Assembly (NCBI GenBank): GCA_037833965.1
Contig: AP031354.1
Span: 30,234,001 to 30,298,000 of the forward strand
Direction of reading: 5' to 3'
From: Marchantia polymorpha subsp. ruderalis
Taxonomy: Eukaryota > Streptophyta > Marchantiopsida > Marchantiales > Marchantiaceae
DNA: 64,000 nucleotides
The translations under genes were made by a program, and so were the position numbers. Positions 9,315-57,200 of this stretch are shown here, in pieces; position 1 is the stretch's first letter; each line of letters opens with the position of its first letter. The notes under the pieces were generated by a model. That model had not been told where the DNA came from. It was given only the letters and a program-made list of their open reading frames with translations, and did not search any database.

Positions 9315-11910
9315 ATGGAAGTAGCAGTGGCGGCCGTGACCATTATCGGACAACTGGAGACTATCTACATGATTATTGACAAAATAGTTCAATATCAGCA
9401 GATGGTCTGCAGATACAAAGATACGTGTCGAGATTTTGTCAACTTCGTCAAGGAAATTGGTGAGATACGAGTGGTGTGTCTAATTGTTGATCATTGTACT
9501 TAGATTAAATTGTGACAGCTCCATCTCCAGCTCGTGGCGAGTCTAACCTCCATTCATAGAGCTGAAGGCGTAGTGTACGTCTGGAACCTCAGAACTCCCT
9601 TTCTTTCCATCCTGTACTTGAGGTAGATTAGAGCTGTGTCTCTCTCCTTCGCAACTGACTCACTGACGAACTGCGACGTCGGTAGTAAGACAATCCTGGC
9701 AAATCATCTTTCAGCACGTCTTTGCATAGCTCGTTAGTCAGTCTTGCTCTCAGAAAATTGATTGTTGTTTTGTCACCTCTGAAACAATTGACTGTCTGTG
9801 ACTTCCATTCAGTTATAGCCATTTCAGTTGCCTATATTCACCAGGTCGATGATAATGCAGACTTAAAAATAAAATGCGAGACCTAGTCCTATTCCACGAA
9901 TTTCTTCTATCTGTAAAGAATGTAGCACATGCCGATCTGGGTAGCCACTCAGTAAGGATTGTTAGGTTGGCGGGAACGTCATTGCCCACAATAATCTTTG
10001 CTTAACATAGCTTTTTTAAGTCACCTAACCTCCGGCTGACATTGCAAACCCGCCATAATCTGCAGAAACTGTTTTGAGAAACAAAGCGTCCAATTTGAAA
10101 CTGGATCAGGAGAGAAAGTTTAGTAATGACGTGAAGAGGCAGCTGGACAACCTGGAGGAGCACCTGCGATGTGCGGCGGCCTTATTAAGCGATCTGGAGT
10201 CCCCTCTCAGAATAGCAGCTTACACAGGAGTGGCTGCAAATAAAATAAGTGAACTCCGAGGACAACTCATGGAGGCGGTCACGCTCTTAACATTCCACAT
10301 CGTGTGCTCTCCTTCTGAGAAACAGGTAATTTTGTGTGCCGAAGTTTGTGTAAGCATGTATTTCAGTCCAGATCGACTTCGTGGACAAAGATTATTCTGG
10401 ATTCGAGACTTTGCCCTCTCTTTTCACTGCTCGCTGTAATTTGACTTTGTGTTAGATTTTCGTTGTAGCGATAAAGCCCCTCAGATTGGTTTCAAATTCC
10501 TCTTTCGGAGACAAGATGTGTGACATATACAACGACGCTGAAAGTAATTTAATAATTGCTCGATGACCTGTGCAGCCGGAGCATCTTCAGTGTCCTCCTG
10601 ACGACACGCATCCACTTTCTCAAGTCCATCACATTCCGAGAATTTTCAAGCAGGAGATTCATCACCATGTGGAGCCACGCGTCGAAGCCAGGACTTCATA
10701 CCAAAAACCCTCACACCAAGAGGTCCACGTTTCCTACCACCACATTGCCCCTCATGACAGTCCTCATGCTCACGACCGTCCGAAAGGTCGCGTGAGAGGC
10801 AGCCGTGAATGTCACTGTCCTCATTGTGAAACTCACCACTCCGCAGGCATTGCTGAATCTGCTTCTCCCAGGCTTCACGGGAACGAGCATGCTCCTGGCC
10901 ATAGCCAACAGCATTGTGTTCACTCCCCTCCTCAGCGTTCGAAAAGCCTTTCCAAGCTTCCTTCAGCTGCTCCACCTCTTTATGCCAAACGCCACTCACA
11001 TATCGTCGCTCATCCCCATATTCTGGATTTCCACCATGCTCTGGAATTCCACCATGCTGAAAATGGTGCTAAAATCTCCTCAGGTCCTCATGCTGATTCC
11101 CATCCTCCGTCTCGGGGTTCCACTTCCCGTTCTAGAAGCAGTTCTAAAATGGGTTCCCCCAGTCATTCTGACAGTCACCACTCTCGAAGTCCCACTCACC
11201 ATCATCAATTTGAGCTTCTGAATTCCAGAGGCAGTTTCAATGCGTCTTCTTCCCCAAGTGCTGCTGCTGCTGCTGCTGAATGTCGTAACTCTTCGAGCCC
11301 TGCCCACCACCGTCACCACCATCATTCTGATAGGCAGCTTTCCAGAAGCAGTTCCAAGATGGACTCTCCATTCCATCCTGACAGTCACCACCATCAACCT
11401 GATGCTGCTCTGCATCCACGAAGCAGTTCCAGGAAGACTTCCCCAAGTCATCCTGATGCCCACACTGATTCCAGACGCATTTCGAAGTTGGCGTCCTTTA
11501 GCCATGCCGAGAATCAGCCGCATCAGCATGATTCTCATCCTCGAGGAATCAGCTCTAAGGTGGCGGAAAATATTCACTCCTCGATCGATCCTCTCTTGAC
11601 TGAGAAAATTCTTCACCGACCTCTCTGTCCTCACCACAATCTTGCCGAAGAGTGTGCTCAGAAGAGCAGCAGCCATTTGAAGAGCGCTCCGATTCCTGCG
11701 GCTGCAATCGACCATCTCCATCATTCTTCCGCTTCTTCTCACCAACACCAACACCACCAACGGAAAGCTCTTCCCCATCAACATCAACGTCAACATCAAC
11801 ACCAACACCAACACCAACATCAGCAGTTCTCGCCTTCGCCATCTCAATCGACGAGCGTGGGCAGGTCTGAGTCGCAGGCCTTTCTGTTCGCCATCGGTCC
11901 CTATGGCTAA
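9315..11910 (+). CDS. Helical-bundle N-terminal domain protein with long His/Ser-rich tail (paralog 1)
   Basis: Three exons: 9315-9459, 10066-10325 and 10576-11910. Introns are phase 1 and phase 0, every junction is GT-AG, and the sum is 579 residues in frame. Residues 1-135 are mainly helical and heptad-like (QLETIYMIIDKIVQYQQMV in exon 1, LEEHLRCAAALLSDLESPL in exon 2). The tail from about residue 136 is rich in His, Ser, Pro and Gln. It holds three copies of a unit RSSSKMxSPxHxDSHH, an Ala run, and a final HQ/HQR tract. The bundle resembles N-terminal four-helix bundles of MLKL, MCA and RPW8 type proteins, known for membrane or cell-death roles. That link is inferred by eye. No kinase, NB-ARC or LRR follows. 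A second gene with the same exon 1-2 design lies at 14.6 kb. The 3' end could be spliced differently, since a possible donor occurs at about 11861. Confidence 0.72.
11134..11466 (+). repeat. Three diverged copies of a Ser/His coding unit
   Basis: Units begin near 11134, 11344 and 11419 and each encodes a version of RSSSKMxSPxHxD(S/A)H. The first two copies differ partly at silent third positions (TCT/TCC, AAA/AAG) while the encoded motif is kept. This supports the reading frame chosen for the His/Ser-rich exon. Confidence 0.7.
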
Positions 11911-11920
11911 GAGCTCTCAC

Positions 11921-13890
11921 TGACAGAGGGGAGTTGCCATGGTCTGTCCCTCGGTTGCCAACTCTGTCGAGGCAGAGAAGGACGATTCAGACGCCTCCGA
12001 TGAGGACTTTCGTCTCGGAAGTGGCAGCACGAGGAAGGTTGCGGGCGACTTGAGGAAAGCAGGCTCCCATAGCTCGAAATCATCATGGTCCTGGATCGGA
12101 TCAATCAATCCTCTCTGCTGCCGCGCTTGTGTTGAACGATTATTACAAGCTACTGTTGGTCAAATCTGCTGCATATCCTATCCTCGTGCAACATGGTTCT
12201 TGGAAACCATGCGCATCCTCTTGCACGTATCAGCTGTTTCCATCGTCATCATGGAGATTGAAAGAGAGAGAGAGACTTGCAGAGCAGAAGAGGGTCGTCC
12301 TTGTTCCCAGTGCTTTCTTTGGAGTCCCACCAAATCGAAGCAGCCCCGAGAGCAGAAAGTTTAAGCCCTCTTAATCTGAGCTGCCCTGCAGCCATCTCTT
12401 AATGGAAGAGTCCCGGCCGCCATCGTTACATATTTTACAATAGCACGAGGGCTCATGAACGGAACACTGAGCCCCAGTTTACATTCTACACCTCTTCCTC
12501 AGGTAGAGTCTTCTTAGTGCAGGCACCGATTCCGACTTCGATCCGATTTCCGGCTCTGAGTTGGTTCTCGGTCCACCATGTTTGTCGTGTCGCTGAGCAG
12601 CAGCACACCTGCTGTGAATTTCGACTAGTTAAATCTGGACCCCCTCGGTCCACCATTTAGTATCGTGTCCTCGGCCAGAAGAGTCATGTGATCACGCTCT
12701 GAAATTCTGAAACTGAAATCAATAGAAAATGTTCTCCAAATCGTCTGCATGTCCTCCCTTTAGAAGAATCGTAATGCATGCTCAGAGTTCGATTTTGGCA
12801 ACGCAATGATCGATCGATCGATACCATTTGCTTCTATTTCACGTGTGCTTGTTACCGATTAAGTTCAGCTGCGATTAACAGCTATGGGACTCCGATTGAC
12901 TGAAAGTGATTTGGAGAACTCAGGCTTGCAGTTTCAGCATATGTGGACGTGGTATTGAGATGTCACAGTCACAAGTCTTTGGAGGAATGGTCGAGCACAA
13001 GTTGCACACACTCATCTTCGTCGCTTCCTATTTTGATTCGGGGATTATGTTTTCTTCCTTCAGTTCGAGAATTTCATGTTCTCGACTTCTTCATTCTCAT
13101 TATCTGAAAAATTTAATTGACTCGTCATTCATCGACGAAAACGATGAATGACGAGCTCTAAAGCTCATTTCTCCATCCGACCTGGGGCTTGCTCCAAACC
13201 TCACGCTATGATGCCATAAGGACAAGGCGAGTGACAGATCAAAGGGTGGGAGTCCGAGCACAGCCTCGGTGATGGGCCACACCTGGCAGATACAGATACA
13301 GCTAGAGGATGAATGATCGATCGTTCCCGAGCATCGAATCCTTCAAGCTACATCAGCAAGTACAGCAATTCTCGAATCAACAAAACTACCGTGTTCAAAA
13401 CGCGATTCAGTCTGACTGACCCTCTGTACAGCAATTCGGCAGAGCATAGAAGAGAACCGTCGAATGGACCTCGTTAAAAAAGCAGAAAGCATGCGTTTGA
13501 CTTTCTTCCCAATACTGAAATCAAGAGAACGAGAGCTTGATGACTGCTTGAGAGAAGTTGATGACAGAGTCGAGATGAGAATGTAAATTCAGTCGATCAA
13601 GATCATGAATTTTGGGGCATCAGTAAATTCCGATTGCTCGAAGAACAACCTGGTGCTCCAACGCCGACCCGTGCAAACTCTGCAGCACGAAATGACGAAG
13701 CGATGACATCCAGATTTATGGTTCCATGGCCGGAGATGTTGCCTTGAGCATCCGATCTGACCTCCTCAGAGCACAGCGTTCGATCAGGAGAGAGAGAGGT
13801 GAGAGGGCACACCTGACAGCAGATGCTTCAATGAATGAACATCTGTCCAGATAACCTGACACAACTGGAAGCTTGCTTGGTGGTCAAGCT
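11921..13890. other. Intergenic region between the two paralogs
   Basis: A plus-strand frame at 11939-12364 (141 codons, ATG start) begins with an acidic Ser-rich stretch (AEKDDSDASDEDF) and could be a small gene or a 3' exon of the upstream gene. Which of its frames is used cannot be settled from sequence alone. A (GATC)n microsatellite lies at about 12808-12822. The rest shows no convincing gene. Confidence 0.35.
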
Positions 13891-14644
13891 GGGCCGCGAT
13901 GGATGGATCGAGGGCAGAGCTGTGCGAAAGCAGGGCGAAGCTGAGAATAGTGCATTGTGCTGCGCATTGGGCGTGGATGACGGACAGTGAACACGATGTA
14001 CGCAATCCATCGGTCATGGGGTTGGAGCCGGGCTATATATGCCACAGGGCCAGCGATGGATGCTCACATTTGATGGATGGATTTGATCGATTCGATTTGG
14101 ATCCGGGCGACGAGCGAATTTGGATCCACGACCTCTTCTCGCCGGGACAGCAGGGGAGGGGGAGGGCTCCGATGAGTGATGAAGAAGGGTTGCCGGCCCG
14201 TGCTACACGCGGGGCACCTTGTTCTCCCCCCCTCCGACATTGCGAACCGCGCAGGGCAGCGAGAAAAGGATGATGGCCTGTAATAATCTGCCACTGTTGT
14301 GTCGGATTTCGATCTCCTGGAAGTTCTTGATTCCTCTCGAGATGTCTCTCGTCGGTCTTGAAAAGCACGCAGCGTGCCCTCGGACACAGGTGTGGTGATG
14401 AGGAGCGACGAGGGCACCACCTTCTGGCTCCCTGAAACAGATTGTAGAGGAATGGAGTCCTGAACAAGTTCCTGTGCGTGTGTTGTAGGCTCAGCCGGAA
14501 CCTAAAAATCACAAGAATCTTCGTCGACATCGATAGGGTTTGACGTCTTTCGATTTCTTGATCGAGTGAGTTTTCTTGATCGATCGGTGGCGGCGCGTGG
14601 CGAATTTGCTTCCGGCCGAGAAGTTAGTGAGTGCAGCAAGCAAG
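13890..14644 (+). promoter_or_regulatory. Putative promoter and leader of the 14.6-kb paralog
   Basis: GC-richer DNA with long overlapping open frames on both strands (13899-14273 plus, 14033-14530 minus), none with a recognisable product. It stands in the same place relative to paralog 2 as the GC-rich block does to paralog 1. The assignment is positional only. Confidence 0.25.
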
Positions 14645-16605
14645 ATGTCGTCGAGAAACGACGGTGTGGAGCCTCTGATGGTGATGACTGACCTGCGCAG
14701 GATCTATAATCTCATCGACATCATGGTCTACTCGCAGCAGTTGGTTCGCAGGCACAAAGCCGAGGCTCAGGCATTCGTTGAATATCTCAAAGATCTCGGT
14801 GAGTTCATCATGCTCCACGTTCCAGTCCAGTCCACTCGGCAACTCATCGACACATTCCTTCGTGGATTGTTTCCATTCCACCGTTAGCTAATCTTCAAGC
14901 TCCTCGATTGGTATTCATCTGCCTACACACCGCTCTTCTTAATACCTCTCCAGCTTCACTGGGATCCCAATCCCAATCCCATTCCCAAGTAAATGAAGAC
15001 CTCTCGTTCTTCAAGCACCCCATCACCATATCTGAATTGTGATTTCCAACGATACTCTTGACATCGTGTCGACTAGTTTCCATAAATTCTACCCGCTCCT
15101 GTATCAAGGTTCCATGGATGAACATCAGATTCTAACCAAAGTTTAGACGTCACGCATTATGTGTGAGGATTATACTGTAGCCAAATTGTAAATGGAAATT
15201 AGGAGCCATGAGTAAGACCGAGGAAAGGGCTATCTATTGCATCGATGACTGTCGAGCCTTTGAGGATTTGATTGATAGCCAGCACTTTGATGTTTGGACA
15301 CGATGATGCATCCTGCAGATTGCACGTTGCATGAAAAGGCGGCAATTTTGTACCCAGACAGCTACGGACTTCTCAGCCGAGGTTGGCACAAACAATTGCA
15401 CGAGCTGGAAGAACTTCTTCGAAGTGCTCAGGAGCTGCTGAAGGATTTGGCTGAACCCCTGCATCTATTCACGCATGCAACTGAGAGATTCAAGGAGCTC
15501 CGTGCGAAGATGACTGAGTGCTTAAATTTGATGACCATTCTTCTACTATTTGTTCCTCCCGATCACATGGTTTTTATACTCGGCCTACCCTTCATACATA
15601 TGGCGCATTGTCCTTTTCAAAATGCTTTATGATTCTATGATACATGTCTTCCAATATGAATTATATGCCTGGATAGAATATACACAGCAAACAAAATGCT
15701 GAGCATTTTGTTTTAGCTCAGCAGTGCAAGAGCTTGAAACTGGCCACTGGTGAAATTTGACCGTCGTTTGGTAGGGAGGAGTAAGAAACTACCGCTTGCT
15801 ACAAATTGTAATCAATTTGTAGCAATCAGTAAGTAGGATGGTAGATCACAATAGAATTGCGATCTAGCATCCTACTTACTGAACCGGAATTGCAATGAAC
15901 ACTGGTTAGCTAAAATTCAGTACTTTGAAACTCCACAAAGTTGGCCAGGCTTTTTTTTCAGCTTCTCTTTAAGTAGAGAACACGAGGTGAGAAACAAAGC
16001 TTTCAGGTGAAGCTCCATTCTTTTTCATATATTGTTTTTAGCTGGCTTCATATGCTTCACACTTATTCAGTAATGATAACGAAATCTGCAGGGCCGTCAA
16101 GCAGAGCCTCTCTATACCCTATCAATGCTAGACCCGCCTCCAGCGGAATGGTATCAACCTCCACCTCCTCAAGATGTGCTTCTCGAGACCAGGACGGCTA
16201 GCCTCAGCTCCAGGTATGGTTACCTTCTGTGTTACAAGTCATTCTTCTGGTCGTTAATCTCAGAGAACAGCAAACATTTCTGCTCTCGCTAATCGAACGA
16301 ACCTCTGTCTTGTGCCCTTGTTCCCGATTTGTGATTGCAGAGGAGTAGAAGGAGGACAACGCAAGTTGACGAGGACAATGACCTACAAAAAATGGAGAAG
16401 ATTGAATGAAATGAAACAATCGCATCAACATTTCAGTGATCTTTTCAGCTATGTCGACAACAGCGAGCAGGCTGTTCTTCTCAACACTTGCTTTGAAAAT
16501 TGGCACACCAGCAGAGAGCGCGCTCACCCTGCTCCTTCCCCGTACTTCACGAGTATGTTGAGTGATCCACACCGAGCACAGCACGATAGTTCTGAACATC
16601 AGTGA
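14645..16605 (+). CDS. Helical-bundle N-terminal domain protein with short Pro-rich/basic tail (paralog 2)
   Basis: Exons are 14645-14798, 15319-15569, 16092-16213 and 16341-16605, giving 263 residues. Introns 1 and 2 have phases 1 and 0, exactly as in the gene at 9.3 kb, and exons 1 and 2 align with that gene's. Shared features include IYxxID, a QQ pair, and FVxxxK in exon 1. Exon 2 shares QLxxLEExLRxAxxLLxDL, a conserved PL pair, and ELRxxMxE. Exon 3 encodes a Pro-rich segment (LDPPPAEWYQPPPPQDVLLE) and exon 4 a basic Lys/Arg-rich tail. A second possible acceptor two bases later (after 16342) would end the protein at 16409 with 197 residues. The donor of exon 2 (ATG|GTTTTT) is weaker than the others. 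Function is unknown; the bundle is likely the same domain as in paralog 1, with an independently acquired tail. Confidence 0.65.
15689..15881. repeat. Cluster of three hairpins in intron 2 of paralog 2
   Basis: Three inverted repeats lie in a row. The first is 15689-15713 (12-bp arms, 1-bp centre, core ACAAAATGCT). The second is 15796-15825 (13-bp arms TTGCTACAAATTG and complement, 4-bp loop). The third is 15827-15881 (21-bp arms with one mismatch, 13-bp loop). The second and third are separated by a single base. Confidence 0.85.
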
Positions 16606-22089: not shown

Positions 22090-22556
22090 TGTAGGGATCT
22101 AAATCCACATAACCAATTGAAAATCACAGTCCACACACAAACACAAGAATTTATTGACAAGGTTCAGCTCAAAAGTCTAATTCCCACTAACTTATCCATG
22201 AAGACAGTTTGAGTATATATCCGAGATCAATGTTGGCTTTGAGCTTTCTGCTGTCATTAAAAGATTTCAGTCCGGTGAAAAATACACACAAATCACTCAT
22301 GTTTTTCGAGCAAGTCTAACCCTTCCTCACATATTATTCAATGTGTTTCCCAATTCTCACTCTCAATTTTTCTTGAAATCCCTTCATTGTCATTTGTATT
22401 TTAATCCGCTTTCTGACTTTATATCATCTTGACTTATAACAGTAAAATATCAAAATGTATCAAAGCTGTCAATTCCTATAAAGCCCATATATATTGACTC
22501 ATAAGTAAGCTATTACTAAACAATAAAAATGACATGTAACTGAAGTTGATATCTCA
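22090..22556 (-). repeat. 3' LTR of the copia element
   Basis: This block of about 467 bp is similar to 26464-26944 in direct orientation. On the minus strand it ends in CTACA. A purine-rich tract (AAGGTGGAGA) sits just beyond its inner edge, as expected of a polypurine tract. Confidence 0.8.
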
Positions 22557-25384
22557 AAATCTCCACCTTAGTCTTCAGTTTTGATCTTGTTCGCTTGTAC
22601 TCGAACTTGGTACTCATACTTCACTGATTTTGCTCAGTCATGGTACATCAACTCTGAGAAGCTTCACACATAATCAAAACTTTCCCACAGTTACCACTTT
22701 CGTGCCCCAGTCTGCCAGGTTGTCAATAGTGCCGATTTTTGCAATGTTGATGTGGTCATCAGTGATGGAGTGGTACTTGATGCCAACATGCTTTGTTCTA
22801 TCCTGGAGTGTTTTCATCTGTCGTGAAACACTGAATTTTTGCACAGATGGGTTGCACTCTGGCTATCGGAGAAAAGTGTTGTTGTAACTTGAAACACATG
22901 TAACTTTGCAGGCTTTGAATCCATATAACTTCCTTCGCTAACTTGGTGGCATCAATAGTTTCTGCTTCTATTATGAATAAAGTCACATCAGGCTGTAACT
23001 TTGACTTCTAGCTCACGCAATTGCCATTGATCAATAATTGATAAGTTGTAGTAGATTCCATGCTATCTTTATTCCTGCGTAGTCAAAGTGAACATATACC
23101 TCCACCAGAACTGAATAAATTCTCTTGCAGTTCACTAAACACACATCAAGAGTGACTTTCAAGTACATTAGTAGATGTTTCATAGCCCACCACTATTCCT
23201 CACCAGAATTTGACATGTATCTGCTAAGTACACTAATGGCATTGACAATATCAAGTCTTGAATACACCATGTATACATGACTGAGCCAACTGCACTTGAA
23301 TATGGAACATCTTTCATGGTTGGCTTTGTTGATGCTGACATAGGACATTAACTTGCAAAATGGCTGAAATGATTTGCAAAAGGTAGAGTCATTGGCTTTG
23401 TATTTCTCATGGCAAATTTCTCAACTTGCTTATCTAAATAGTCATGTTGTGACAATGCCAATGAATCATTTTTCCTGTCTTTGATGATGCTCATTCCAAG
23501 GACTCTTGTAGAATCACCTAAATCAGTCATATCAAACTCTTTGCTCAAAATCTTCTTGAAATCTGATATCTTTGAGGTTGAGCTGCTGATCAATAACATA
23601 TTGTCTACATACATGATAAGATAGATGCTTTTCAATACTTCAAATCCTTTGAAATACAAGCATGCATTATAGAAACTCCTTTTGTATCCTTGTTCAAGCA
23701 TAAATGTGTCAAAACGTTTATATCATTGATGTGGTGATTGCTTCAAGCCATATAGCAATTTCTTTAGTAGACACACCATGTCTTTGACTTTATGCACTTC
23801 ACATCCTGGTGGCTACTCCATGTAAATCACTTCTTCCATGTCGCCGTGAAGAAACGTTATTTTCACATGCATTTGATAGAACTTCAAATTATACTGAACC
23901 ACAAGCGCGAGCATAATACTTATGATTTTTTATTTTACCATAGGTGAGAAAATTTCATTATAGTTGACTCCTTCAACCTGTGCGAAGCCTTTTGCCACTA
24001 GCTTGGTCTTGAACTGAGACTTGTTAGCATTGACTACGTCTACTTTGATCTTGTAAATTCATCAACATGTCACTAGCTTTTGATTTTGAGGTTTTGGAAC
24101 TATGATCCAAGTTTTGTTTCTATGCAGCGATTCCATTTCATCTTTCATGGCTTTCTTGCATTTTTCTAAATTTGATCAAGCAACAGCATCTTGATAGTAG
24201 AGATGATCCTTCATCAGAATCTCTAAGGTTGATGTGAACGTGTAAACAAGAATCTTAGAGCATGCGGAGAAGTCATATCTCTAAGGAGGTCTTGACACTC
24301 TCTTTTCTCTATTCTTAGTCAGAAAGTAATTATTTTGTTGTTGAGATTGCTCTAAGTTGTTGTGGCTTGTCGCCTCTTGTTCGCAATTGCCTTACTCTTG
24401 ATTAGTTTGATTGCTTGGTTCAGTGACATGATCTAGAGCTTGCATGTCCTGATCTTCATGATCACTTGAGTTGCTTAAACCTTGGGCTTGTGAAGGAGTG
24501 ACATGAATAGTTTGCTCCACCTAAATAATATTCTCTAAGGTTTCTGCTTGGTTAGTGGCACTCACAACACTAGAACTTGGATCAGTCCATGATTGACAAG
24601 GAAATACAATCTCATTAAATATCACGTCTCTACTATTGATACTTTGAAACTATTACCTTCCTTTACCCTCAGTCTATACTCCTTGGCACCTTGTTGATAG
24701 TCAACACGCATTTGATGGCTCTTGGCTCCAATTTGCCTTGACTTTGATGAACATATGCACACATAGTGTTGCTTTGCTAAAATGCAATGCTCGCAAAAAT
24801 CAAATTTGCTAACTTTCTACTTTCTTAGCACTTGGTTGTTCATATGCTGTAGACCCTTCTCAGAGATATGACCAAGCCTTTGGTGCCAAAATGTAGCTTT
24901 GCTCTGGTTATAGATAGCGGCAACTGACACAATTTCTCTCTGATGAGATAACAGAGACGGGATATCTTGATACCCTTCAAAAAAATAACATTTTTTGCAA
25001 TATACATAAAGCCTTGCTATATCTTGTTAGTATAACCCAAGTCATTAAGAATGTCTATAGAGATCAGATTACTATACAATTCAGTCACTCATTTAACATT
25101 TTCAAGAATTCTCATAATATCATCAAGCATGTTAATGCGAACATATACTATACTAACAATAAATTAAGAACAATTGTTAACCATTATTAACTTTACTTCT
25201 TTGACTTCTTGGTAGTACAACAACCAATGCGTGTTGTGTGTCCAACTAAAGTCAAGGATCCAATCCAAGGCCTTGAGCTTTACTAATGTCATGAGAACTT
25301 CGCTGTCGTTGTTGTCATCATCAAAGTTTGCTGAATCTTGGTATCCTTGTGACGTGCTAGTGTAACCATCTTTAGTTAGTTAGA

Positions 25385-26463: not shown

Positions 26464-26944
26464 TGTAGGTATCTGAATCCAAATACAAACTGAAAATTAC
26501 AATCCACACACACAAACGAACACAAGAATTGATTTACGAGGTTCAGCTTGAAAGCCTAGTTCCCACTAACTCCTCAATGAAGGCAGTTCGGTCTTGACCT
26601 TTCTACATTCATTACATGATTTAAGTCCGGTGAGAAATAAACGCAGACAATCACTCATGTTTCCCCAACAAAACTAACACTTCCTCACAACTAATTCTCT
26701 CTCAATGTGTATCCCAATTCTCACTCTCAACCTTTCTTGAAATCCACTCACTTTAATGTGTATCTTAATCCGTTGCCTGACTTTATATCATCCTGACTTA
26801 TAATGGTAAAATATCAGAATGAATCAAAGCCGGCAATTCCTTTAAAGCCCATAGTATATTGACTCATCACTAAACTAATACTAAGCAATAAAAACGACAA
26901 AAACTCTAAAAGAAAAAGGACATGCAACTGAAGCCAATATCTCG
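26464..26944 (-). repeat. 5' LTR of the copia element
   Basis: Direct-orientation counterpart of 22090-22556, about 481 bp, adjoining the primer-binding site at its inner edge. It contains a short internal insertion (about 26895-26918) relative to the other LTR. Confidence 0.8.
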
Positions 26945-28942: not shown

Positions 28943-31361
28943 TTAGAAAGCCTTGAACTTGGTGATTCTAATAGGACTTCCTTTGGCAGTGCCAGGGCTG
29001 AAATGGTACACAATCTTCTCGTCGGGATCAGCCAGAGTCCACTGAAGATTTTTCAAAAAATGGTGTAGAAACACGAGCATGGTAACCTTCGCCAATTCGA
29101 TGCCAGGGCAGATGCGCACTCCTCCTCCGAACGGGAAAAACGTGTGGGCTGGTGCGCCTTCTCGTTCGAATCTAGACGGATCGAATTTCTCTGGTTCTTC
29201 ATAAATTTCCGGGTTTTGAAACGATTGCGCCGCTGTGCATAGGAGCTGCATTGCCAACACAAGGTTAACACACTGATCGAGAAACCTCCGACAAAAGCTT
29301 TTGTATTTATGTTCTCGGATTCTTTCACCGGCTTCCTACACGATTTCAGGCTGGACCCATCCATCCTCGAATCGTTTAGAGGTCTGGATCAGCAAGGTTT
29401 GAGTATTTTTCTGAAGAAGAAGGTAGTACTCAAAAACTTTGCTGAACTGGCTTTGGGTTTTTCCAAATCCGTCGGTGGTCCAATTACAACAAAATAACTG
29501 CTCTGAAAACAAATCTGCAAAGAAGCACACTGAGGGAATAATAACATTTCTGAACATTCATTGTGGACGTTCACGAGCTATAAAATCTGCCAAATTCCTT
29601 AAGGCTCCAGAGGTTTCATAAATCTGGACCAAAGGTTCACAGGACGAAGTGAGAGAGAAAATGGAGTGGACATGTCACATATCAAGAGATATCATTACCT
29701 TCCAGCCTTTAGGTATGGTGTAACCGTTGTACTCAAAAGTGGCTGTTGCCTCCCGAAAGATTCCAGGTAAAGCGGGATACAGTCTCATCGTTTCTTCTAT
29801 TACCGTCCAGGTGTACTTCATGTTTTGAACGTCATCGTTCGTCAGAGGTTCGCCCTCTTCTTTTACTTCAGTAATCGACGTATGCTCTGTTCAACCGAAG
29901 CATAATCGTCAGCTCTCCGGAAGAAATCACATTTCCTCCAATCACTCAAAATATCAGAGAAAAGAGAGAACAACTTCTCAGGTCATTACAGGGACTTGAC
30001 TATCTCCCAGCATGCATAGCAGAATCAACTACGAGGTGGTTAATATTGCAAAGTATTTTCTTCTCAGGACTTCTGTTACTACCTCGTGGTCATATATGGA
30101 GGGTCTTGGAACCAAACACCATATTTATCAGTATCTAGACAGCAAGCTCAATTTTGAGAACATCCACTCATCTGGTAGCCATTGAGTGCATGTATATAGC
30201 CAAGTCTTCCAACAGCAGCTGACACACCATGAAGAATTATGCCAGCTTACGCTCGACTAACCGCAGGATGATCATTTGTAAGGAGGAACGAGCTCAATTA
30301 CCTGCAATGAGCTTGTCGTACACTTCGGAATGTTCAGTGATTTTCCTGATGGCCATTGTTAAGGTAGCAGCGACCGTGTTGGCGCCACCATGGATCAGAT
30401 GGAGTATGTTGGTCTTGATCTCCTCATCCGTGTAGAAGTGCCCATTCTCATCAGGTTCTGTCAGCAAGATGGACAAATAATCCTGAGTGGGGGTAGCGGT
30501 TCCATCCTTCAGTTCTTGTTTTCTCCTCTGTACATAAGGCTCGAAGAAGCTGAGAATCTCAGCTCTCGCCTTCATGGCCTGGTAGTAGCCACTTCCGGGC
30601 AAGTTGATGGGCAGGGCCATCAAACCTTTGGCCCAGATCTCAAAAGTGGGTCGCAGTTTTTCAGACTCGTGCTTGTCCGTAAGGGTCAAACACAGATCAG
30701 CAACCAGCTCAAAAGTGAAAATTCTCAACACGTTTTGGGCTTCGAGCACTGATCCATCGATGGTTCCATCCAGCCAGTGATTCTGAATGTGCTCGATGGC
30801 TCGGGTCTCGATTTTGCCCAGGTACCGGTTCACCACATTGTGCCCCAGGAAGTGGCTCATCAAGTGCTGCTTGTGGCACCTGTACACGGCACCATTCTCA
30901 GCCGACAACACATTCGGTCCCACGAGCTTCAGAGTCGATCCAGGCCAGTAGCCTTGGATCAGCTTCTCATCGTTGCCTTTGTTGAACATGAGCTTGGTGC
31001 CATTCGGAGCATCCATGAACACAGTCGTGTGGCCCATGAGCTTGGCTTTGAACACAGGAGACCCGTACTTGGCGATTTTCATGTCGACATAATCCCGAAT
31101 GGTTCTGTTATAATATGCATTCACATACTGGATCGTGTCTCCGAAGAAGGGCAGCCCCAGGTCGCCAGGAGGCACGTGGTAATTTCGCTCGTCCTCCTTC
31201 CTCCCACTGCTGCTCCATACCCAACCCAAAACGATGGCCAGGAACGACAGCAGCAGCACTGCCAGCAGCCCCGCCGTCCCGTAAGATGAGCTCGGCCCGT
31301 TCAGACTCGGCAATTGGCCCACGGTTCCTGCCAGCCATGAGTGCTTTCCGATGCCCTCCAT
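28943..31361 (-). CDS. Cytochrome P450, CYP85 clan (CYP716-like)
   Basis: Three exons, 31361-30302, 29886-29699 and 29245-28943, join in frame to 516 residues, a normal P450 length. The ATG at 31361 is preferred; the frame extends upstream only with non-ATG starts. An N-terminal membrane anchor (about residues 30-52) precedes the hinge [14 protein letters not shown]. The K-helix shows EETMR, the PERF region [10 protein letters not shown], and the haem loop [12 protein letters not shown] with its Cys ligand. The I-helix reads HGGANTVAA, so the usual acidic residue before the Thr is Asn. P450s of this clan oxidise triterpenoids, sterols, brassinosteroid or diterpenoid substrates at the ER, using electrons from P450 reductase. 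The substrate here cannot be told. No other pathway gene is adjacent. Confidence 0.92.
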
Positions 31362-33300
31362 AGGTCTCCAGCTAAAACTCTGCAGTCCACGTGCAAGTTT
31401 CTCCAACAAGTCCACTGGCCCTTCACATCACAACGACCCAAAGCAAGCAGCGTTAGCATGAAATCCCTGCGCACGAGCTCGATCTGCTAGAGTGCACCTG
31501 CTCAAAAATCTTCATCCTTTCTTCAGCTCGAACAACACAAATTCCATAAGTAAATTTCGCTCTCTGGACCAGTAGCCTAAGGAATCTCAGCCTCACCATC
31601 ATTCCACGATCGATAATTTCTTCCATAGACATCCTCGAAGTCTGATCAGCAGATCGTCATCCCACTTTGCTACGACCCAAAGAAAATCTATCTCTCTCAC
31701 TCACTCAGCAAGCGCTGAACTGATTCAATTAGAACCACTCACCCTCTCATCAGCAGTCCGGGCGTACAAAAGGCAAAATCTCCTCCTGGATGCGTGAAGT
31801 GTACCCTACCCCTGCACTACCAGGACATCAATGGAGGGCACGAGTCTGAGGAAGAATTCTCACCGTGAAGGAGACACGTCAGGGACAGATTGCCATCGAG
31901 TTATCTCGCGTGGCTCATCACTCGCGGGCCCGAATGAATCGTCGTCCTCTGCTCACGCCACCGAATTCTGAGACCTGCAGAGACGACGACGAGGTTTATA
32001 GTTAGAGGGAGGTCGTCGTGGGATAATTGTGTCGGAGGATTCCAAAAACTTCAGGTACGAGAGTGACGATGCACGAGGAGGCGCAAGCAGCGAGCCCTGA
32101 GGCAGACGACGAGAGGAGACGTGGGGGCGGGGGGCGGGGGGCGAACCTGAGGGACATAAAATAAGATTGGATCGGATTGGACCGGAGTGCGCTGCACTGG
32201 AATGGACTGGACTGGACTGGACACGACAAGACACGACACGCCACGACACTGTGGGCCGATCGCGCACAAGCGGACGAAGGTGGGCAAATCTGGCGGAACG
32301 GCGCAGCAGAGAAGAGCACGGGGACGAGAGCAGGCTTCGATTTTGGTCGGAAGGCGAGAGAGAGCTCGAGGGAGACACGAAGCAGAGGGAGTTCATGAGA
32401 GCCCGAGAGTTCCGAGAAGCAGTGAGGCGATGACGGAGAGAAGCGATAGCGAGGCTCAAAGCTCGGCCAAACGCGTCCGATGCTCTCTTATACCTTGTCC
32501 GGCTGGTTGTCCTGTACGAGAAGCGGGCTCCCAGAGCTGTCAGAAAACAATTTGAACCGAAGTGATTGCCATGTGATTCATCATTCCCATGTCTGCCTGT
32601 CTGTCCGCAATCGGCTCGCTCTCGCGCAGAATTCGACACGGAGGAGTACTTTTTGGGCTCGAGCCCGAACATATCAAACGTGAACAGTGCCAAAGTCTGC
32701 ACTCCTCATGACGATCGTCTGAACTTTTTCCTGATATTTTGGACCTTCGTGCCCTCTCGTAATGCCTCGGTAATTTTAGTTACCCCCTCCCTCTCGCCCA
32801 ACCCCAAACCCCCGTAGAATCTATGCCCCCTGTCCTTGTCCTCCCTAAACCCTTCGCCCTCCCCCTCCTTCCCTCCTCTGCCCCCAGTCCCACCCTTGCC
32901 CCTCCCCCTGCCCCCTGCCTGGCCCTGGCCCTGCCCCTGCCCCTACCCCTACCCCCTGCCTGCCCCTGCCCCAGCCCCCTGTCGTCTGTCCTTGACTTTG
33001 ATTTGTGGGCTAATCGCAATTGGGGCCTGTCTCCCCGCTCGCAAACACGCTTACGGGCTTAGCAGAGCTCAGCGGATCTGAGATTCCGACCGGGCGCCTC
33101 CGGGCGCTCCCCACCTGCCGTCTGGGGCCTCCTGCTTTGGCCGCATCTGCGCCCTGAGCAGCGCTTGTCGACTTGCGAGTAGGCAGGCACCGCAGATCGT
33201 TGCCATGCATCGGCAACAAACGAGCACCAGCTCCATTCTCCTTCATCCTTCCTCCTTCCTCCGAGCGCTGGACAGGATGTGGCTGTTGTGCCCGGATGCA
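31362..33300. other. P450 upstream region with GC-rich low-complexity tracts
   Basis: Likely promoter and leader of the minus-strand P450 near 31.4-32 kb. It contains a (GGACT)n-like tract at about 32196-32222 and a long C/T-rich tract at about 32820-32990. Long open frames such as 31953-32702 minus (249 codons) and 32187-32555 plus arise from this biased composition and show no domain. Confidence 0.45.
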
Positions 33301-37157: not shown

Positions 37158-40100
37158 TCTACACGCATCGTCGACTTTTTTATGTCCATCGTCGACTTTT
37201 GTTTATGTCTGTTGCCTGCTCCTGCTTTGAATGGAAGCCGGGAAAGGAATGAATGAGCTTTTCTAGAACGCGAAACGCTGACCCAGAGGATCAAAAGCTC
37301 GAGGCTGGTGGTTCGGGCTGATCCCTCGGCCTGTGGACAAGATCCCGTCGCAGTAAAGGGAGATGGAGGGGAGAGGAGGACATTGCGAGCAGGCGAAGGA
37401 AAAGAGCAGAAGGGCCAAAGGAGATGGGGGAAAGGAGTCCTGCCTGACTGACTGACACTAGGCTATGAGAATAGGCACATGAACTTCACGAAATCCCAGA
37501 ATCCTCGTTCCCGAAAGAGAAAGAGTTCAAACTCTTGCTTTTCCGAATCCTCCAACTACTTGCGAAAGTGGGGCTGGCTGGCCAGTCACCGAAGCCCTTC
37601 GTTGGCCTTTGGAATTGCGCCACTGTGTCGTCGAGCAGTAACGGATGGTCCTTGTGTTCCAAGCCACCACCGTTCTCCTCCCATGTGCGCAGCGATCTGC
37701 CACACTTTGGAAACGGGGTGGTGTGTGCAGGTATCCAGCTCCAGCTCCAGCAAGAGCTCGAGCTCGAGCTTGTCTGAAGAACACTCCCTCTGCTTCACTG
37801 GAATGATGAAGGCTCGAGACGCCAGAGCCGCAAATTTCGTGCACATCCATTTGTCAATTGCTCGAACTTCGACACTTGGGGGCCGATGATGCACCCTCTT
37901 TGAGTGCACGCTGTGTCCGCCCCTGCTTTGGCTAGTTTGTCTTTAACTGCATGCAGGCAATCCGCGGAATGAGCAGCAGCAGCGGCATCTGCACTGCTCT
38001 GCTCTCTTCAATGGCTTTGTCTTCAAGTGCATGCAACAGAAACCGTTTGTTTAAAATCTCAATCCGACCTCCTCCTTCTGCAACCTCACCTCGCTTTATA
38101 TCATTCTCAAATCTCAATAATACCCACCTCGTTTCACTTCGCTCTCCCGTATCAACCCCGATTTTTGTCTTACCGCATCCGTGTTCGCATGCATCAATGA
38201 ATAGAAAACGATCTGCTTTTGCATGCGGCTTCAATCATGACGTCGATTATATCTGTTCTTAAATCTTATACTAACAGTATTCTGCAGCCCGTCCCTAAAT
38301 CCTCTGAAGGGTTCCCTCGCCTATCTGGGCATTTAGTAAAAGCAGAGAGCTCAGAGTCGGAGGCGCCAGCAGCAACTGATGCCATTGGACTCGAACCATC
38401 TCCTCGTGTACGTTTCGGATGCTAGGAGGAGGAAAAGAGGATCAAATTTCCACATGCGAACATCATGGCGGATTTTTTGGAATATAAAAAGTGCGTAATC
38501 AGAACAAGCGATCAGCTCGACCCATACAGTGGAAGTAGGACCTGCACTATCCTCCTGCCGAAGCAACGGAAAGCTCTTGCGCAACATCGATCCTAATCTT
38601 CAAGTCGCCGGCACTGCCAAGCGTAGGCCATGGCAAAAGAAAGTCAGTGCTTAGGTGCTGTACTGCTCAAAGCTTTTTCCTTCCCGTCTCGCGTCAAGCG
38701 GCTGCATTTTATAATATTTCTCGTGCCGTACGATCTGGACGCTTTTGCATCCTCGCTTCTCTGTGTGACCCGTGTCTCGGACCCGGTGAAAAATCTTATC
38801 ATGTACTTCCAAATGATGATCCACGGATTCTGCCACAGCAGCTATGGAATAGATTTCTCATAGAATGTTTTTGCGACATCGGATTCTCTCGGAAAAGTCT
38901 ACACTCTTCCAAATTCCTCTCTCTCTCTCTCTGTCTCTCTCAATCCCTCCCTTTTCACCATGACGAGAAATACGCATAGATACCCATTGATCGAACAGCA
39001 AAGCACAAGGGGGCTCCGACAGTGACACTATGAACGAGTCATATAAGTGAATATACATCATAGTTTATGCATATCGGGAGTTTCTTCACAACTTGCTTTT
39101 CTTTTGCTTCCAAAACTCAATCCACAATTCCTTTGTTCACATTATCCCACATCTCACGTTCGATCGATGAAGAGATGAGATGTCCATAACTTGCGTCGCG
39201 ATCGGTTTTCTGAAGATGCTCAACATCTTTGCAGAAACTTAGTCCTGATTTCGCTCCTCGTGCGGGAGGGGGATGATCGGCCTTAGCAGGGCTTTGGATG
39301 ATCTTGCCATATGGTCAAAAATGGAGCCATGAGCAGGGCAGTCGAACCATCGATCCATCGATCGGCTTCACAACTTCACGACGGCTTTCATATGTGGGCA
39401 GATGGATGGCTGCACCGCCAGACAAGAGTTTCACGTCAGTGGCAGAAAGTGGAAGTCCAAGAGGAGTGAGTTAAACTATCTTGCTCTCGCATGTCTAATG
39501 AACTTTCCTTCCTTCCCTCTAAGTGGTTGAAAAGCTCAAGGGGTGAAAAAGGCACAGAGGTATGGGCCCTGTGTACAAGTAGGTAGGAGCTGGAGATATG
39601 AAGTTAAAATGGGTGGTACCTGAAAATTGGTGCACGCATGCTCGCTCATCTTCGTCCACCGCAACCTTCTTCAGACCTTTCTGTATCACTGCTCCACTAC
39701 ACATGCCCATATCCTCAAATCCCCAGGGAGACAGTGCTAACTCCCGGAACCGCATCGTAGTAAGCTTGGGAGAGGTTTTTCGATGTCGAGGTTCTGTCTA
39801 AGACTTAGTGCTCTGACTGTTGAGTTAGTTTTGTCGATCTCCTTAGTCCATTGGGAAATGTGGGACACTTTCAGGTCAAATTCCAGGTCTATCTAGACCA
39901 TAGTCTCGCGTCAAGGATTTCCAAAGTAACTTCGTTCGTTTCCTGTGCTTCTCCTCCACAGGAAGACATATTTCCTTGCACATCTGCATTTCTGCTTCAG
40001 CCGTTAACTTGCCTTCATGTTCTCAAATCTCTTGTCTAGCTGTGTAATCTTCAACTGACGAAGTCCAGGCGAAAAGCCTAACGACATCTCGACGAAACAC

Positions 40101-51200: not shown

Positions 51201-54200
51201 GTGCTTATGTCCTCACCTATAAGTCTAGGTATAGTTTGTCTACAAAGTACTCCAACCCCGGTATAGCATCAGAAGTAGGGCAATGATCGTTGGTGTTCGT
51301 TCACGTCGCGATGAAGAGGATTAGTTTGGTATATCGGAAAATTTTGGCCGCAGATCAAAGCTTCTCTGAATAAGACTTGACATGCAATAATCGTCGGATG
51401 AGATCCATACCTACTCTTCGAGAGGTAAAGAACCTTAGATGAAATAAAGTAATCTCTGATGACTTCGGACAAACTGTAGGATTATTATAAGTCTTATAAA
51501 GCTTAATAATGAGGAGACAGAAGCTGGACCATTGTAATCCATAAGGTTATTCGATCTTAGTTTACTGGTTTTTTACCTCCAAAATCACCGTCAAGTTTCC
51601 AATCATGTAGAGATCTGTGCTAAATTGTTCATCCACGTTCTGGACTCCATTCTAAATTGACTACTCATATATTAAGAAAACTGTGTAAAGCTGTGCTAAG
51701 AAAATCTTCATCAACCACATTTCCGATCTCCAATGGAAAATGATTCATCAAATAAAGAGAGAGTTAGACAACCCTCAAACCGCAACAAAACCACGGAGTT
51801 TTACAACGTAAGACAAAATTACTAAAAATTTGTACGTGTGGATTTTGGACGCAACCAGTTAAAGGAAGTCTAAATAAACTTCCGAATATTACAAGTAGCT
51901 TAGCAGCAAAAACGAGAGACAAAGATGGAGGGATGAAAACTTCACTACATATGGTGAATTTTTTTCCTCCAAATTTATTATTATGAGTGAAATATGTGGT
52001 TGAATTGGTGTTTCTTTCATGATACTCGTCCTACATTTACTCTCTAATGCAAATACCTTGAATTATTCAATACCCACATGGTTCAAAATTTAATGTGGAG
52101 TTAATCATCTGTATTCAACCATGTGTATCTAAAGTTGAATATTCATCACTAAAGTGCTTAAAAACTTTAGTGCTAAACATTTGAATATACAAAACAAAAA
52201 TGACTTTTTTAACACCCAGATGACCCAATTCCCGCTTTGAGTTTCATGAAAAGTATGTTTCACACAACTGTTTTATACAGGTGGATGTGAAATTGTTGAA
52301 AGGGGTTTTAAGATAAACTGATATGCGCTTCTGCAAAGAATGAATTTGGGAAGTGTTAATTGTAGGATATAGAGACTCAGAACTGGTATATTAAAAGAAA
52401 CTGAATCCTTCAAGCTTAAGTTCAAATTAACAGAATGATCAATCCGTGGATGTAGCAAAAATCCTCACACTATTGAACTCCATTAAAAGCGAAGACATCA
52501 CTCTTCACTAAGTTACTATACATACCTGAAGGAAAGCAACACGATCCTCTACCCGTGGTACCTCGACAGTATCTAGTTCAGCAAACTCCTGCAACACAGT
52601 GAAAGTAAAACATTAAGTCCATTTCCAACAGTAAGAATAACGAGTGATGTTTATACTGAACATTTGAATTCTGTCAAATGGTTGGTACAGCAATCTCCCG
52701 CTCGAGTACGCAACTTGAACTTGGAAGGATACTGCGCACTTAGCCGGTAGGTGCGTAATTTAGAACAATCACTTCCTAAATTCTAAACTTCACTGGTTCT
52801 GCTGCAATGTAGAAGAGACCTAACGGGAAACCCCTCAATGATTCCCAACGATGCGATATCATAGAGAACTTGAGGAGGACGGATGCTCTCAGTAAAAGGG
52901 CTCTAGCGAGCGAGTATGATGTTAATGAAGGAGCTATCAAAAAGGTATGGACTGAACGGAAGCAAATCTAAACTAAACATTAAATTAGGCCGGAGATTAC
53001 GAGGCGGTGCTGCTGGAGTTGCATACAGAAATCCAACTCATCTGCTCGATGCTCCGAGTATATCAATGAAGCTTTGGCAATCCATGTCACCAAGCTCTAT
53101 CAAAAATGTATTTGTGAAGGCAAAAATAATGACATTAGAAGTCGGGAAGCACTGAACGAGATGGAGTGTTCAATGACTGAAGTTGCACAAGCTATTGCAA
53201 CTTTAAATCTTTCTGTTTGACAAGAAGAGCTTAAAGAATTTGTTCGTGTCTACGATAAAAACAGTGAAGTATTTGCAGCCGCAATTTTGGAAGACGTTGA
53301 AGAGTTTTTGAAGACGATGAAGATGGTTGAAGAGAATCTGGACAAAGATAATGACATTTTTATCTCTCAAAGAGTCAGATTCGGTTCTAGAAAACACCGC
53401 CGTACTTAAAGTATGAAGTCACTTTATAAGCAGGTTGTTAATATAGAGCATCAGTTGCTCTGCTGCGAAGTTTGAAAAGAGGCTGAAGAAAAATTTGATG
53501 ATCTTAGGAAGTTGTTTGCATCGTTTCAAACGCAAGAATATATCTTCAAAACTTACGCGAAATGACAATCCATGACATGTTGAACTAAATAGATGTGATC
53601 CCTAATTCTTTGGGAAAATAATGCGTACTTAACCGGAGTCCACTTTACTATTTGTAACTATTCATGTTGATACAGAGTTAAACCTCCCAATAGTGTCACC
53701 TCTTATGAGTGACATCCTCTCATTAGTGACGTAAAATTCTAGAACCATTAGTTTCTAACTTGTAAATCTGCTCAATAAGAACGGTACGTCACTATTGCCA
53801 ATAGTGACAGGATACTAATCAATAGTGACAGTTTCAAGTGTAGTTTCGGAGTTAGAATTGTTATCATTATCACAGTGAGAAAGAAGAATGTGGCATACCT
53901 TTACTTAAAGATCTATCTCAACAATTCACTCTTTCAGGGCTTCAGTAAAATACTTCGCTACATATATTATCATCAATTGTTTCACTTAGATTTTTATGTT
54001 TTAATCCAAATTCAAACGCAATTATAGCCTAAGTTAAATGTCGTGAACAATAAAGAATTGCATATGAATGCGATCTTGAAACCTAACAACACATTTTTAG
54101 AATGTCCTAGCACGGAGTCTATGCACTTTCTTTTTATAAATGACACCTCCCAATAGTGACATCCAACCCTAACACCAATGTATGTTACTCTTGCGAGGTT

Positions 54201-57200
54201 ATACTCAAGGTTATGCACCTGCCAGTAATGACATCCAACCCTAACACCCGTGTATATTACTATTGGGAGGTTATATTCAAGGTTAAACACTTTACTCTTA
54301 TGAGTGACACCTCCCAATAGTGTCGTAAAACCCTAGCACCAATGTACGTCACTATTGGGAGGTGTCACTCACGTAAGCACCTCCGTATTGGGTGCTTAAG
54401 CCACATGAAAATCCATGACATGTTGAACCAAATAGATATGATCCCTAATTCTTTGGGAAAATAATGCGTACTTAACCGGGAGGCCACTTTACTATTTATA
54501 ACTATTCATGTTGATAGACCCAAACCCTCCGTATTGGGTGCTTACGCCACATGACAATCCTTGACATGTTGAACTAAATAGATGTGATCCCTAAGTTTTT
54601 GAGAAAATAATACGTACTTAACCGGGAGGCCACTATACTATTTATAACTATTCATGTCGATAGATCCAAACCCTCCGTATTGGGTGCTTACGCCACATGA
54701 CAATCCATGACATGTTGAACTAAATAGATGTGATCCCTAAGTTTTTGAAAAAATAATGCGTACTTAACCGGGAGGCCACTTTACTATTTAGAACTATTCG
54801 TGTTGAAAGATACAAACCCTCCGTATTGGGTGGAGTGTTAGAGAAATATTAGTACATCATCTTCACTACTTCGATAGACAACTGCAACAACGTACATGTC
54901 CCAAACAAATAGCCCATATCAAACAACCCGTAGGTGCTATCTTGAAACTAAAAATCTGTTGACCGGGTCTGATTTCGGCGAATAAAGTATACAATTTTCA
55001 TCGGGCCACGGTCCCGTACGATAAAAAGCACAAGTCCACTTCTGTGATAAAGGCACTGCAAAAACTTCACATTATTTTTTACGCCGTCCAGTTTATGCAA
55101 GTCACCCGACTAGCATCATTGTGTGATTGTTTATGTACATCTTCTTCTACTCTATACAAGATCTGGGTAAAAGGATAATTCCCAATTGATGTCCTATACA
55201 GCATCATTGTGTGATTGTTTATGTACATCTTCTTCTACTCTATACAAGATCTGGGTAAAAGGATAATTCCCAATTGATGTCCTATACAGAATAGATGTTA
55301 TATTTTTTAATACAGCTATCCTCTTTGTAACCACTTTCATCTGACCGAGGAAAAAAAAAGCATTTTTGCAAGATGAACCAAACTTTTAAATGTGTAAAAA
55401 AATAGATCCTGAACTGTTTAAAAATTGTGTAATGAACTCACTCTCAGCTCATGAATACTTTCGGTGGAGTTCCAACTGACGCCCATAATCCTGAATGGAA
55501 CAGGTTCTCTGTTTCTTCTCTGTAAGTAAAACAATCAATCCAAGACGGTGCTTGTACTTAGGCTCTGCAGTCAAGTAACATACACTAGTAAAATTGCATA
55601 AGAGAAACAAATTAAAGAAGAATATTCTTCTCAAACCTACCGTATATTTTAGAGCTCTGTCTTGTGGATTGTACGGCTGGCACCTCGAGGCGGATGAAAC
55701 TTCAACCGTCTCCACGTTCTCCGGAGTAGTGGCATCTGGACTACTTGTGGCATTTCCTGCTGCTAACAAAATGACTACGCTCTCTGTGCCTCTCGCGTTC
55801 ACTTGGTCACTTTTGCCTGTTATCTTTCCCTCCGGTGATCTTAGAAGAAGGAAAGCTTCTGGGTTCGGCGTCCTGTAATTTGATGTAGTTAGTTTCATTT
55901 GCCACAAGCAGATTGGAATGGTGTGAAACAAAAGACATAAAATATTAACAAAAACAAGAATCGTGTACTTCACGACCAGAAATGGAAATGTTATTGAAAG
56001 CACTCACCTGTGAGCGGCGCAGTATGATACCATGCGTGTCATGGGATCCCCACTCTTATTGTTTAAACTTTGTATCTACACAGAAGAGGATGTAACAAAA
56101 AATAGTTTTAAAATATAAATAAAACTCGGAACGAAAATCCTTGTGTATCACAGCTACAATAATGTCAACTTCCTTTTGGTTCCAAACACAATTCACAAAC
56201 ACACAATTCCAAACACAATTCACAATTCACAAAATAAAATTTTTAACAAAGACACGTTGTATACAAAATGTTCCAAGACGAGTTAACTTTGGCTCAATAT
56301 CAACCTCCATGTGATAACCCGCTTTGGCCGCGCAAGTCGTATGATATGGTGTCCGGCACTTTGCACAGTGTGTGCAAGCTCCATGCACCTGTTTACATAA
56401 TGTGCACATCTTTGCACACCAAGCCCACCATCGCAAATTATCAGACTGAATTTAATTCATCTACGTAAACTTTCCTAAAAGTATGCAAAAATGGCTGGTC
56501 AATTTTGAGAATTTCCGCAATGTTTAAATTATAATATCCAGACTCGACATCCCGATGCATTGAAGTCAAGAGTACAGATCTGTCAACTACTTACTGCCTT
56601 CATACACAGTACATCAGAGATAACAGTCATTGACTTCGTAATTCAGAATCTAGCTTTTAGTATGTGACCAGAGATCTTTTCTCAAATTACGCGTACATTC
56701 ATCATGTTCCTCGCGCAAATTCAAATCCACTCCCGATGTAGATTACACCAACCTCTCGAAATCGTGCAAGAGGAATGCTCGTCACGCCGTCTGCTGGCTC
56801 CATACGAGTGGCGTCCTTGAAGGTCATCTCCCTCATGAACCAGGCGCAAATAACATGTACCCAAAGACCATTAGTTGTAGTTGGCTTCAAAGCGCCACCT
56901 GTCACCAAGGTTGAGAAATTTATCAATCTTCCGCACAGAGTATTATAGCGATCAGCATGATGGAGATTTCATACCCACCAACAGATGTCATGTATATTCC
57001 ACCAGAATTCTAAGAACTCACCGCCCGGTTTCAATCACCAAGCTGATTCTACATTCCTCTCTTTTACCTTTGACTGGGCACAAACAACACTGCCGCTCAA
57101 TATCGTGTCTTTCACAAGCTCTACACACCCACGATCCAGGGGTGATCTCAGAGGCCCGAACTCCGTAGCACTCTTCGTGTACACATACTTGGCACCTGGA

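Follow-up and report, generated by a model that had tools for sequence, protein, structure and literature searches.

A Marchantia polymorpha gene pair with a shared, possibly MCA-like N-terminal head and dissimilar tails

Gene models of the pair

A 64,000-nucleotide stretch of the genome of Marchantia polymorpha subsp. ruderalis (assembly GCA_037833965.1, contig AP031354.1, positions 30,234,001 to 30,298,000), hereafter the window, in whose own coordinates all positions are given, carries two neighbouring genes on the forward strand that we refer to as A and B. Gene A (9315-11910) was modelled with three exons and a product of 579 amino acid residues, and gene B (14645-16605) with four exons and 263 residues; the gap between them measures 2.7 kb (11910 to 14645). 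Exon 1 of A (9315-9459; 145 nt) encodes the start of an N-terminal region, the head, including a hydrophobic segment at residues 3-21, while exon 1 of B (14645-14798; 154 nt) encodes the start of the corresponding head, and both end in phase 1. The remainder of the head is encoded by exon 2 of A (10066-10325) and exon 2 of B (15319-15569), the phase-0 ends of which are homologous, so that exons 1 and 2 together amount to 405 nt in either gene. Both second exons and the first exon of B were placed by splicing signals, alignment and tblastn. Downstream of the head, exon 3 of A (10576-11910), assigned on its open reading frame (ORF) and the spacing of its repeats, encodes a tail rich in His and Ser, in which an RxSSKxxSPSHxD-like repeat occurs in four degenerate copies. 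The last two exons of B are uncertain; exon 3 (16092-16213), a Pro-rich stretch, and exon 4 (16341-16605), a basic segment with the end of the protein, were each proposed from an open frame and a TGCAG acceptor.

Intron 1 opens with GTGAGA in A and with GTGAGT in B. In both genes the second junction coincides with the corresponding end of the head alignment, its donor being CAG/GTAATT in A (the slash marking the splice point) and ATG/GTTTTT, a weak site at 15569, in B. All five acceptors close with TGCAG, a word found 13 times between 9315 and 16605, where AG occurs 494 times; as the exons had been picked by open frame before TGCAG was counted, the acceptor word lends support to the models as an unclean test. 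Codon usage was scored for each exon against 1000 null draws. Exon 1 of B was the sole exon to stand out, with a fraction of 0.001 of the draws scoring as high; the corresponding fractions were 0.071 for each of the first two exons of A and 0.135 for exon 2 of B. Since these three otherwise secure exons did not rise clearly above the null, codon statistics have too little power at this locus.

The heads of A and B are paralogous

The 135-residue heads of A and B are 33% identical over their whole length and align with a local BLOSUM62 score of 172, a value reached by none of 2000 shuffles of the B head (mean 28.3, standard deviation 5.1, maximum 62). Run as a tblastn query within the window, the A head retrieved exon 2 of B with an expectation value (E) of 3.9e-8 and exon 1 of B with E=2e-4. 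No third copy of the head was found in the window, the next matches having E=1.6 with A and E=3.9 with B as the query. An Asp residue is common to both heads (D22 in A, D25 in B). The first-pass annotation of this DNA had described matching first and second exons and intron phases of 1 then 0 in the two genes, and both statements hold. A and B are a real paralogous pair with homologous introns, and they are most likely tandem duplicates. Pattern searches for relatives of the head yielded 344 matches in prokaryote genomes and 117 in viral contigs, none of which was confirmed by tblastn; given the make-up of these two collections, nothing is learned from them on plant orthologues.

Two dissimilar tails, one of them uncertain

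Beyond the head, no match better than E=2.5 was obtained between the tails of A and B by tblastn in the window. To that extent the tails are unrelated, as had been claimed, with the proviso that the tail of B rests on the weak donor at 15569. The tail of A comprises 444 residues, the 445 first counted having included the stop codon, among which are 75 His and 77 Ser, with VILMFYW contributing 14%, and it totals 11 RxxS and 11 [ST]P sites. It contains in-frame repeats: the degenerate protein motif recurs at residues 322, 392, 417 and 435, and the spacings of 210, 75 and 54 nt are each a multiple of 3. Six tandem arrays (periods 18, 18, 3, 9, 6 and 6) are also present, and half of the differences to the reference repeat copy, 24/48, fall on codon position 3 (7/11, 7/18 and 10/19 in the individual copies). 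Codon usage disfavours the claimed frame and is to be set against the interpretation given below: the frame scores -0.144 per codon, less than another forward frame (0.007) and two reverse frames (0.061 and -0.090). Further open frames run across exon 3 of A, including one of 278 residues on the reverse strand, and openness by itself is therefore weak evidence for the tail. Pfam returned no match to the A tail at E <= 0.01, and a literature search for a His-rich tail of this kind returned none among the matches listed.

Exons 3 and 4 of B encode a Pro-rich and then a basic stretch, a tail model that is uncertain in that it depends on the weak donor. An alternative acceptor at 15962 would append LLFK followed by a stop, giving a four-residue tail and a protein of 139 residues, and retention of intron 2 would give a 155-residue protein. 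B may thus have no real tail, in which case exons 3 and 4 would be chance open frames and the dissimilarity of the tails an artefact of the gene model on the B side. In line with this, the codon score of exon 3 was not above the null (0.262 of the draws as high), that of exon 4 (-0.099, compared with a null mean of -0.220 and standard deviation of 0.123) was not clearly so, and exon 4 had no Pfam match at E <= 0.01. Yet the junction is homologous in position to the phase-0 intron of A, the acceptors end in TGCAG, and the codon scores on which the argument draws have little power, secure exons failing by them too. On balance a tail-less B appears to be on the unlikely side, and it would be compatible with the reading of the heads that we favour. 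For the earlier suggestion of swapped tails there is an equally possible alternative, in which a disordered tail diverged, and the tail model of B is weak.

Intron 2 of B also contains, at 15790-15882, two adjacent inverted repeats, one with arms of 27 nt (93% identity, 3 nt apart) and the other with arms of 19 nt (89%, 4 nt apart), which are possibly the trace of a small mobile element.

Relation of the heads to described domain families

The heads had been tentatively placed at first with the N-terminal helical bundles of the MLKL, MCA, RPW8 and HeLo types. MCAfunc is a streptophyte domain that occurs with U-box and Arm, U-box, PLAC8, kinase or Arm (ARO3) regions, or alone, as type II (PMC8049495; this and the other papers cited by PMC number are represented here by excerpts). 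Type II proteins are counted there as one in Marchantia polymorpha, two in its subspecies ruderalis and two in Physcomitrella patens, and the function of single-domain members is given as unreported in 2021 (PMC8049495).

The heads were scanned against Pfam with an E limit of 10, the tool discarding most of what exceeds roughly 0.1; the copy used includes the models for MCAfunc (PF19584), RPW8 (PF05659) and DUF1221. All matches fell below cut-off. Those of the A head were DUF7792 (E=0.027; 15 bits with a cut-off of 27 bits, profile positions 4-80 of 120), OrsD (0.044) and Rx_N (0.072); those of the B head were OSCP (0.071) and Sec2p (0.58), and the full B model matched DUF1932 (0.11). DUF7792 was not listed for B, nor were RPW8 and DUF1221 for either head. 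As controls, a plant MLKL matched DUF1221 with E=1.4e-59, and an Arabidopsis MCA1 sequence matched MCAfunc with E=4e-78, followed by DUF7792 (8.8e-5), PUB10_N (2.2e-4), RPW8 (0.027) and TraD (0.15). Because MCA1 also matches DUF7792, the top Pfam match of A lies in a group that MCA1 touches too. DUF7792 is associated with Arm-repeat proteins such as ARO. A literature search for DUF7792 found nothing, and the excerpt of PMC4404733, on ARO1, contains nothing on the N-terminal region of that protein.

One of three profile comparisons made with hhalign set the paired heads against MCA1/MCA2 and returned a score of 29.0 (E=3.5e-4) over 88 columns aligned from the first residue. This score was reached by none of 200 column shuffles and none of 300 hydropathy-preserving shuffles (maximum 23.4 in both sets), and reversed MCA scored 11.5 against the same heads. 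The A head alone scored 25.6 against MCA, a value that none of 114 pieces of ORFs in the window (at least 100 residues) attained; the top-scoring piece (21.9) includes exon 1 of B, and the next (19.0) lies at 37452-37887.

Several results weigh against kinship with MCA. Neither head reaches the Pfam cut-off, MCAfunc was listed for neither A nor B, the MCA1 and MCA2 sequences used were not drawn from database records, and hhalign itself assigned the match with the paired heads a probability of 37%. The whole head of B scored 19.8 against MCA, near the 19.0 of the unrelated window piece; the signal resides in exon 1 (20.3 in A, 19.7 in B), barely above that same piece, and exon 2 is at background (11.9 in A, 11.5 in B). 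With A standing out alone and B alone scoring near an unrelated piece, the comparison supports a distant MCA-likeness for the A head and for the two heads combined, but gives no such support to B by itself.

Against two plant MLKLs, the paired heads scored 11.7 by hhalign, a background value that 97 of 200 shuffles equalled or exceeded. MCA compared with MLKL by the same test was weak as well (13.4, E=0.19), which indicates that the test is blind across that distance and that the MLKL negative is not a strong one. A sequence search of the PDB with the head alignment returned eight sequences, neither MCA nor MLKL among them, the best being a phosphatidylinositol transfer protein (E=0.27). MCA1 returned two, the best at E=0.29, and thus has no clear solved relative by sequence in the PDB copy used. 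A literature search for MLKL, HeLo domain and bryophyte combined found nothing.

These comparisons bear on whether the heads could be cell-death effectors of the MLKL, RPW8 or HeLo type, in which the bundle would insert into or permeabilise membranes once inhibition by the tail is lifted. The MLKL_NTD, DUF1221 and CCR domains superpose (PMC10951266), weak matches link MCA1 to RPW8 and A to Rx_N (E=0.027 and 0.072, as above), and a missing MLKL match weighs little, as the test misses MCA against MLKL too. NLRs and the associated RPW8, MLKL, TIR-X and CC-X proteins occur across plant lineages (PMC11218826); CC-X there denotes coiled-coil (CC) proteins next to a P-loop hydrolase, which sets them apart from A and B. 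Non-flowering CC-NLRs have a MAEPL motif (same excerpt); B has VEPL at residues 8-11, away from its N-terminus, from which we draw no conclusion. With no RPW8 or DUF1221 match for either head, a background score against MLKL, and no kinase or NB-ARC match in the A tail or the B model, we consider such effectors quite improbable, and cell-death activity of the heads is unsupported. What survives of the family relation first proposed is the distant likeness to MCA.

Predicted fold and hydrophobic first segment

AlphaFold2 (AF2) models were made on the separate exons, as contiguous products. The exon-1 pair was modelled as one helix (residues 2-47; predicted local distance difference test score, pLDDT, 93.9), and exon 2 of A as two helices (2-49 and 54-80; mean pLDDT 72.1, predicted template modelling score 0.50). 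The pieces of the head are thus helical in these models, which agrees with the helical part of the bundle first proposed; a four-helix bundle was not seen in these separate pieces. A long helix plus a helical hairpin, lacking the break expected between helices 1 and 2, counts mildly against such a bundle. Foldseek, run with the exon-2 model, gave 77 matches at E up to 10, the best at E=2.1, again no help to the MCA relation. The best 50 of the 77 were assorted helical proteins, and these matches were rejected.

The same models can be read as plain helical coiled-coil dimerisation modules, their MCA-likeness then being a convergence of amphipathic helices. That the separate exons model as long helices, that the MCA signal is confined to exon 1 and that every Pfam match is below cut-off all fit this explanation. 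It is harder to square with the failure of all 300 hydropathy-preserving decoys to reach the observed score, with the 88 columns aligned from the first residue, and with DUF7792, which offers a second, separate link between A and MCA1. We hold mere convergence to be unlikely.

By the Kyte-Doolittle scale (19-residue window), the hydrophobic first segment of A scores 1.9 (residues 3-21), while MCA1 and MCA2 score 1.48 and 1.54 (residues 11-29). The single membrane segment of MCA, putatively residues 11-33, takes in residues 11-29 and carries Asp21 (PMC3903776, PMC8526687). Two further points tell against the MCA relation here: the first segment of B scores 0.85, too low for a membrane span, and Asp21 of MCA stands opposite a gap in the hhalign alignment with the heads, the Asp shared by A (D22) and B (D25) facing Gly27. 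With Asp21 meeting a gap, an MCA-like channel function is unlikely.

Origin and possible roles of the pair

As an account of all these results we put forward, with confidence evenly balanced between its being right and wrong, that A and B are tandem duplicates whose head belongs distantly to the MCAfunc/DUF7792/PUB10_N group, and that the head and its introns were kept as the tails diverged. One plant gene with an N-terminal helical head would have been duplicated, the head retaining its two introns and the C-terminal tails diverging past recognition thereafter, that of A through the in-frame growth of a His/Ser repeat of low complexity and that of B into a short Pro-rich/basic stretch, or possibly almost nothing. 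Most probably the head would self-associate and attach to a membrane, with the hydrophobic first segment helping in A, and partners and regulation would be set by the disordered tail, through its many His and its kinase-accessible RxxS and SP sites in A and through a basic patch in B. In MCA, residues 1-173 on their own assemble into tetramers and carry Ca2+ (PMC8526687). A and B are possibly membrane-attached adaptors. Paralogy, homologous introns, an MCA-like sequence in the A head and in the pair, and in-frame repeats in the A tail have been shown, whereas membrane attachment, self-association and regulation by the tail are inferred.

Among known systems, a close parallel is that of the type II, MCAfunc-only proteins (PMC8049495), with which A and B share an MCA-like N-terminal region and the lack of a U-box, Arm, PLAC8 or kinase partner; they differ in missing the Pfam MCAfunc model and, in A, by the 444-residue His/Ser tail. 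A family of stand-alone bundle proteins, as first envisaged, would not be a novelty, since MCAfunc-only bryophyte proteins already figure in that work. Compared as profiles, the paired heads are similar to MCA1/MCA2 across the first 94 columns, and A resembles these channels further in its hydrophobic segment near the N-terminus; the pair departs from them in Asp21 facing a gap, in the lack of a hydrophobic segment in B and in the lack of PLAC8, no match to which was found by Pfam in the A tail, B exon 4 or the full B model. DUF7792 is the best Pfam match of A, though below cut-off, and neither the A tail nor the B model has an Arm match. A and B share with plant MLKL (DUF1221-kinase; PDB 6LBA, 6KA4) the layout of a helical domain at the N-terminus with a C-terminal part of another kind behind it; unlike MLKL, they show no detected sequence relation and no kinase match in the A tail or the B model.

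A could also be imagined as a minimal MCA-like membrane protein in which the N-terminal membrane segment and helical head would assemble as in MCA and a phosphorylatable, metal- or pH-sensitive His/Ser tail would replace PLAC8, with B, devoid of a membrane segment, as a soluble partner or regulator; this we regard as highly improbable. Were the duplication of an MCA-like gene correct, an ancestral head would have outlasted tandem duplication with its regulatory tail remade, and the set of heads that connects MCA with Arm/U-box proteins and, less tightly, with immune helical bundles would grow. For the present, the locus holds an ordinary divergent duplicate pair with uncharacterised products, a modest variation on described plant protein types.

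Other features of the window

Ten sequences, from 10 of the 94 ORFs of the window, were scanned against Pfam, and no NLR, kinase or U-box match was found among them. On the reverse strand, a 538-residue stop-free frame at 18118-19734 matches DUF2921, of the transmembrane E3 ligase type, with E=3.3e-23, and a cytochrome P450 gene, found as two or more pieces (E=5.3e-16 and 1.1e-19), occupies 28943-31427. At 23348-23722, also on the reverse strand, lies a fragment of a Copia-type reverse transcriptase (RVT_2, E=1e-19). These three features are consistent with land-plant DNA. The segments 22114-22489 and 26493-26853, mutually similar by translated search (mostly 55-76% in pieces), may be copies of a repeat surrounding the Copia fragment. 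At 58044-58352 on the reverse strand, TDBD, the Tify-domain binding domain, is matched weakly and below cut-off (E=0.00037). Finally, similar direct repeats cluster at 53553-55304, as exemplified by 54382-54684 and 54528-54830, which are 86% similar by translated search.

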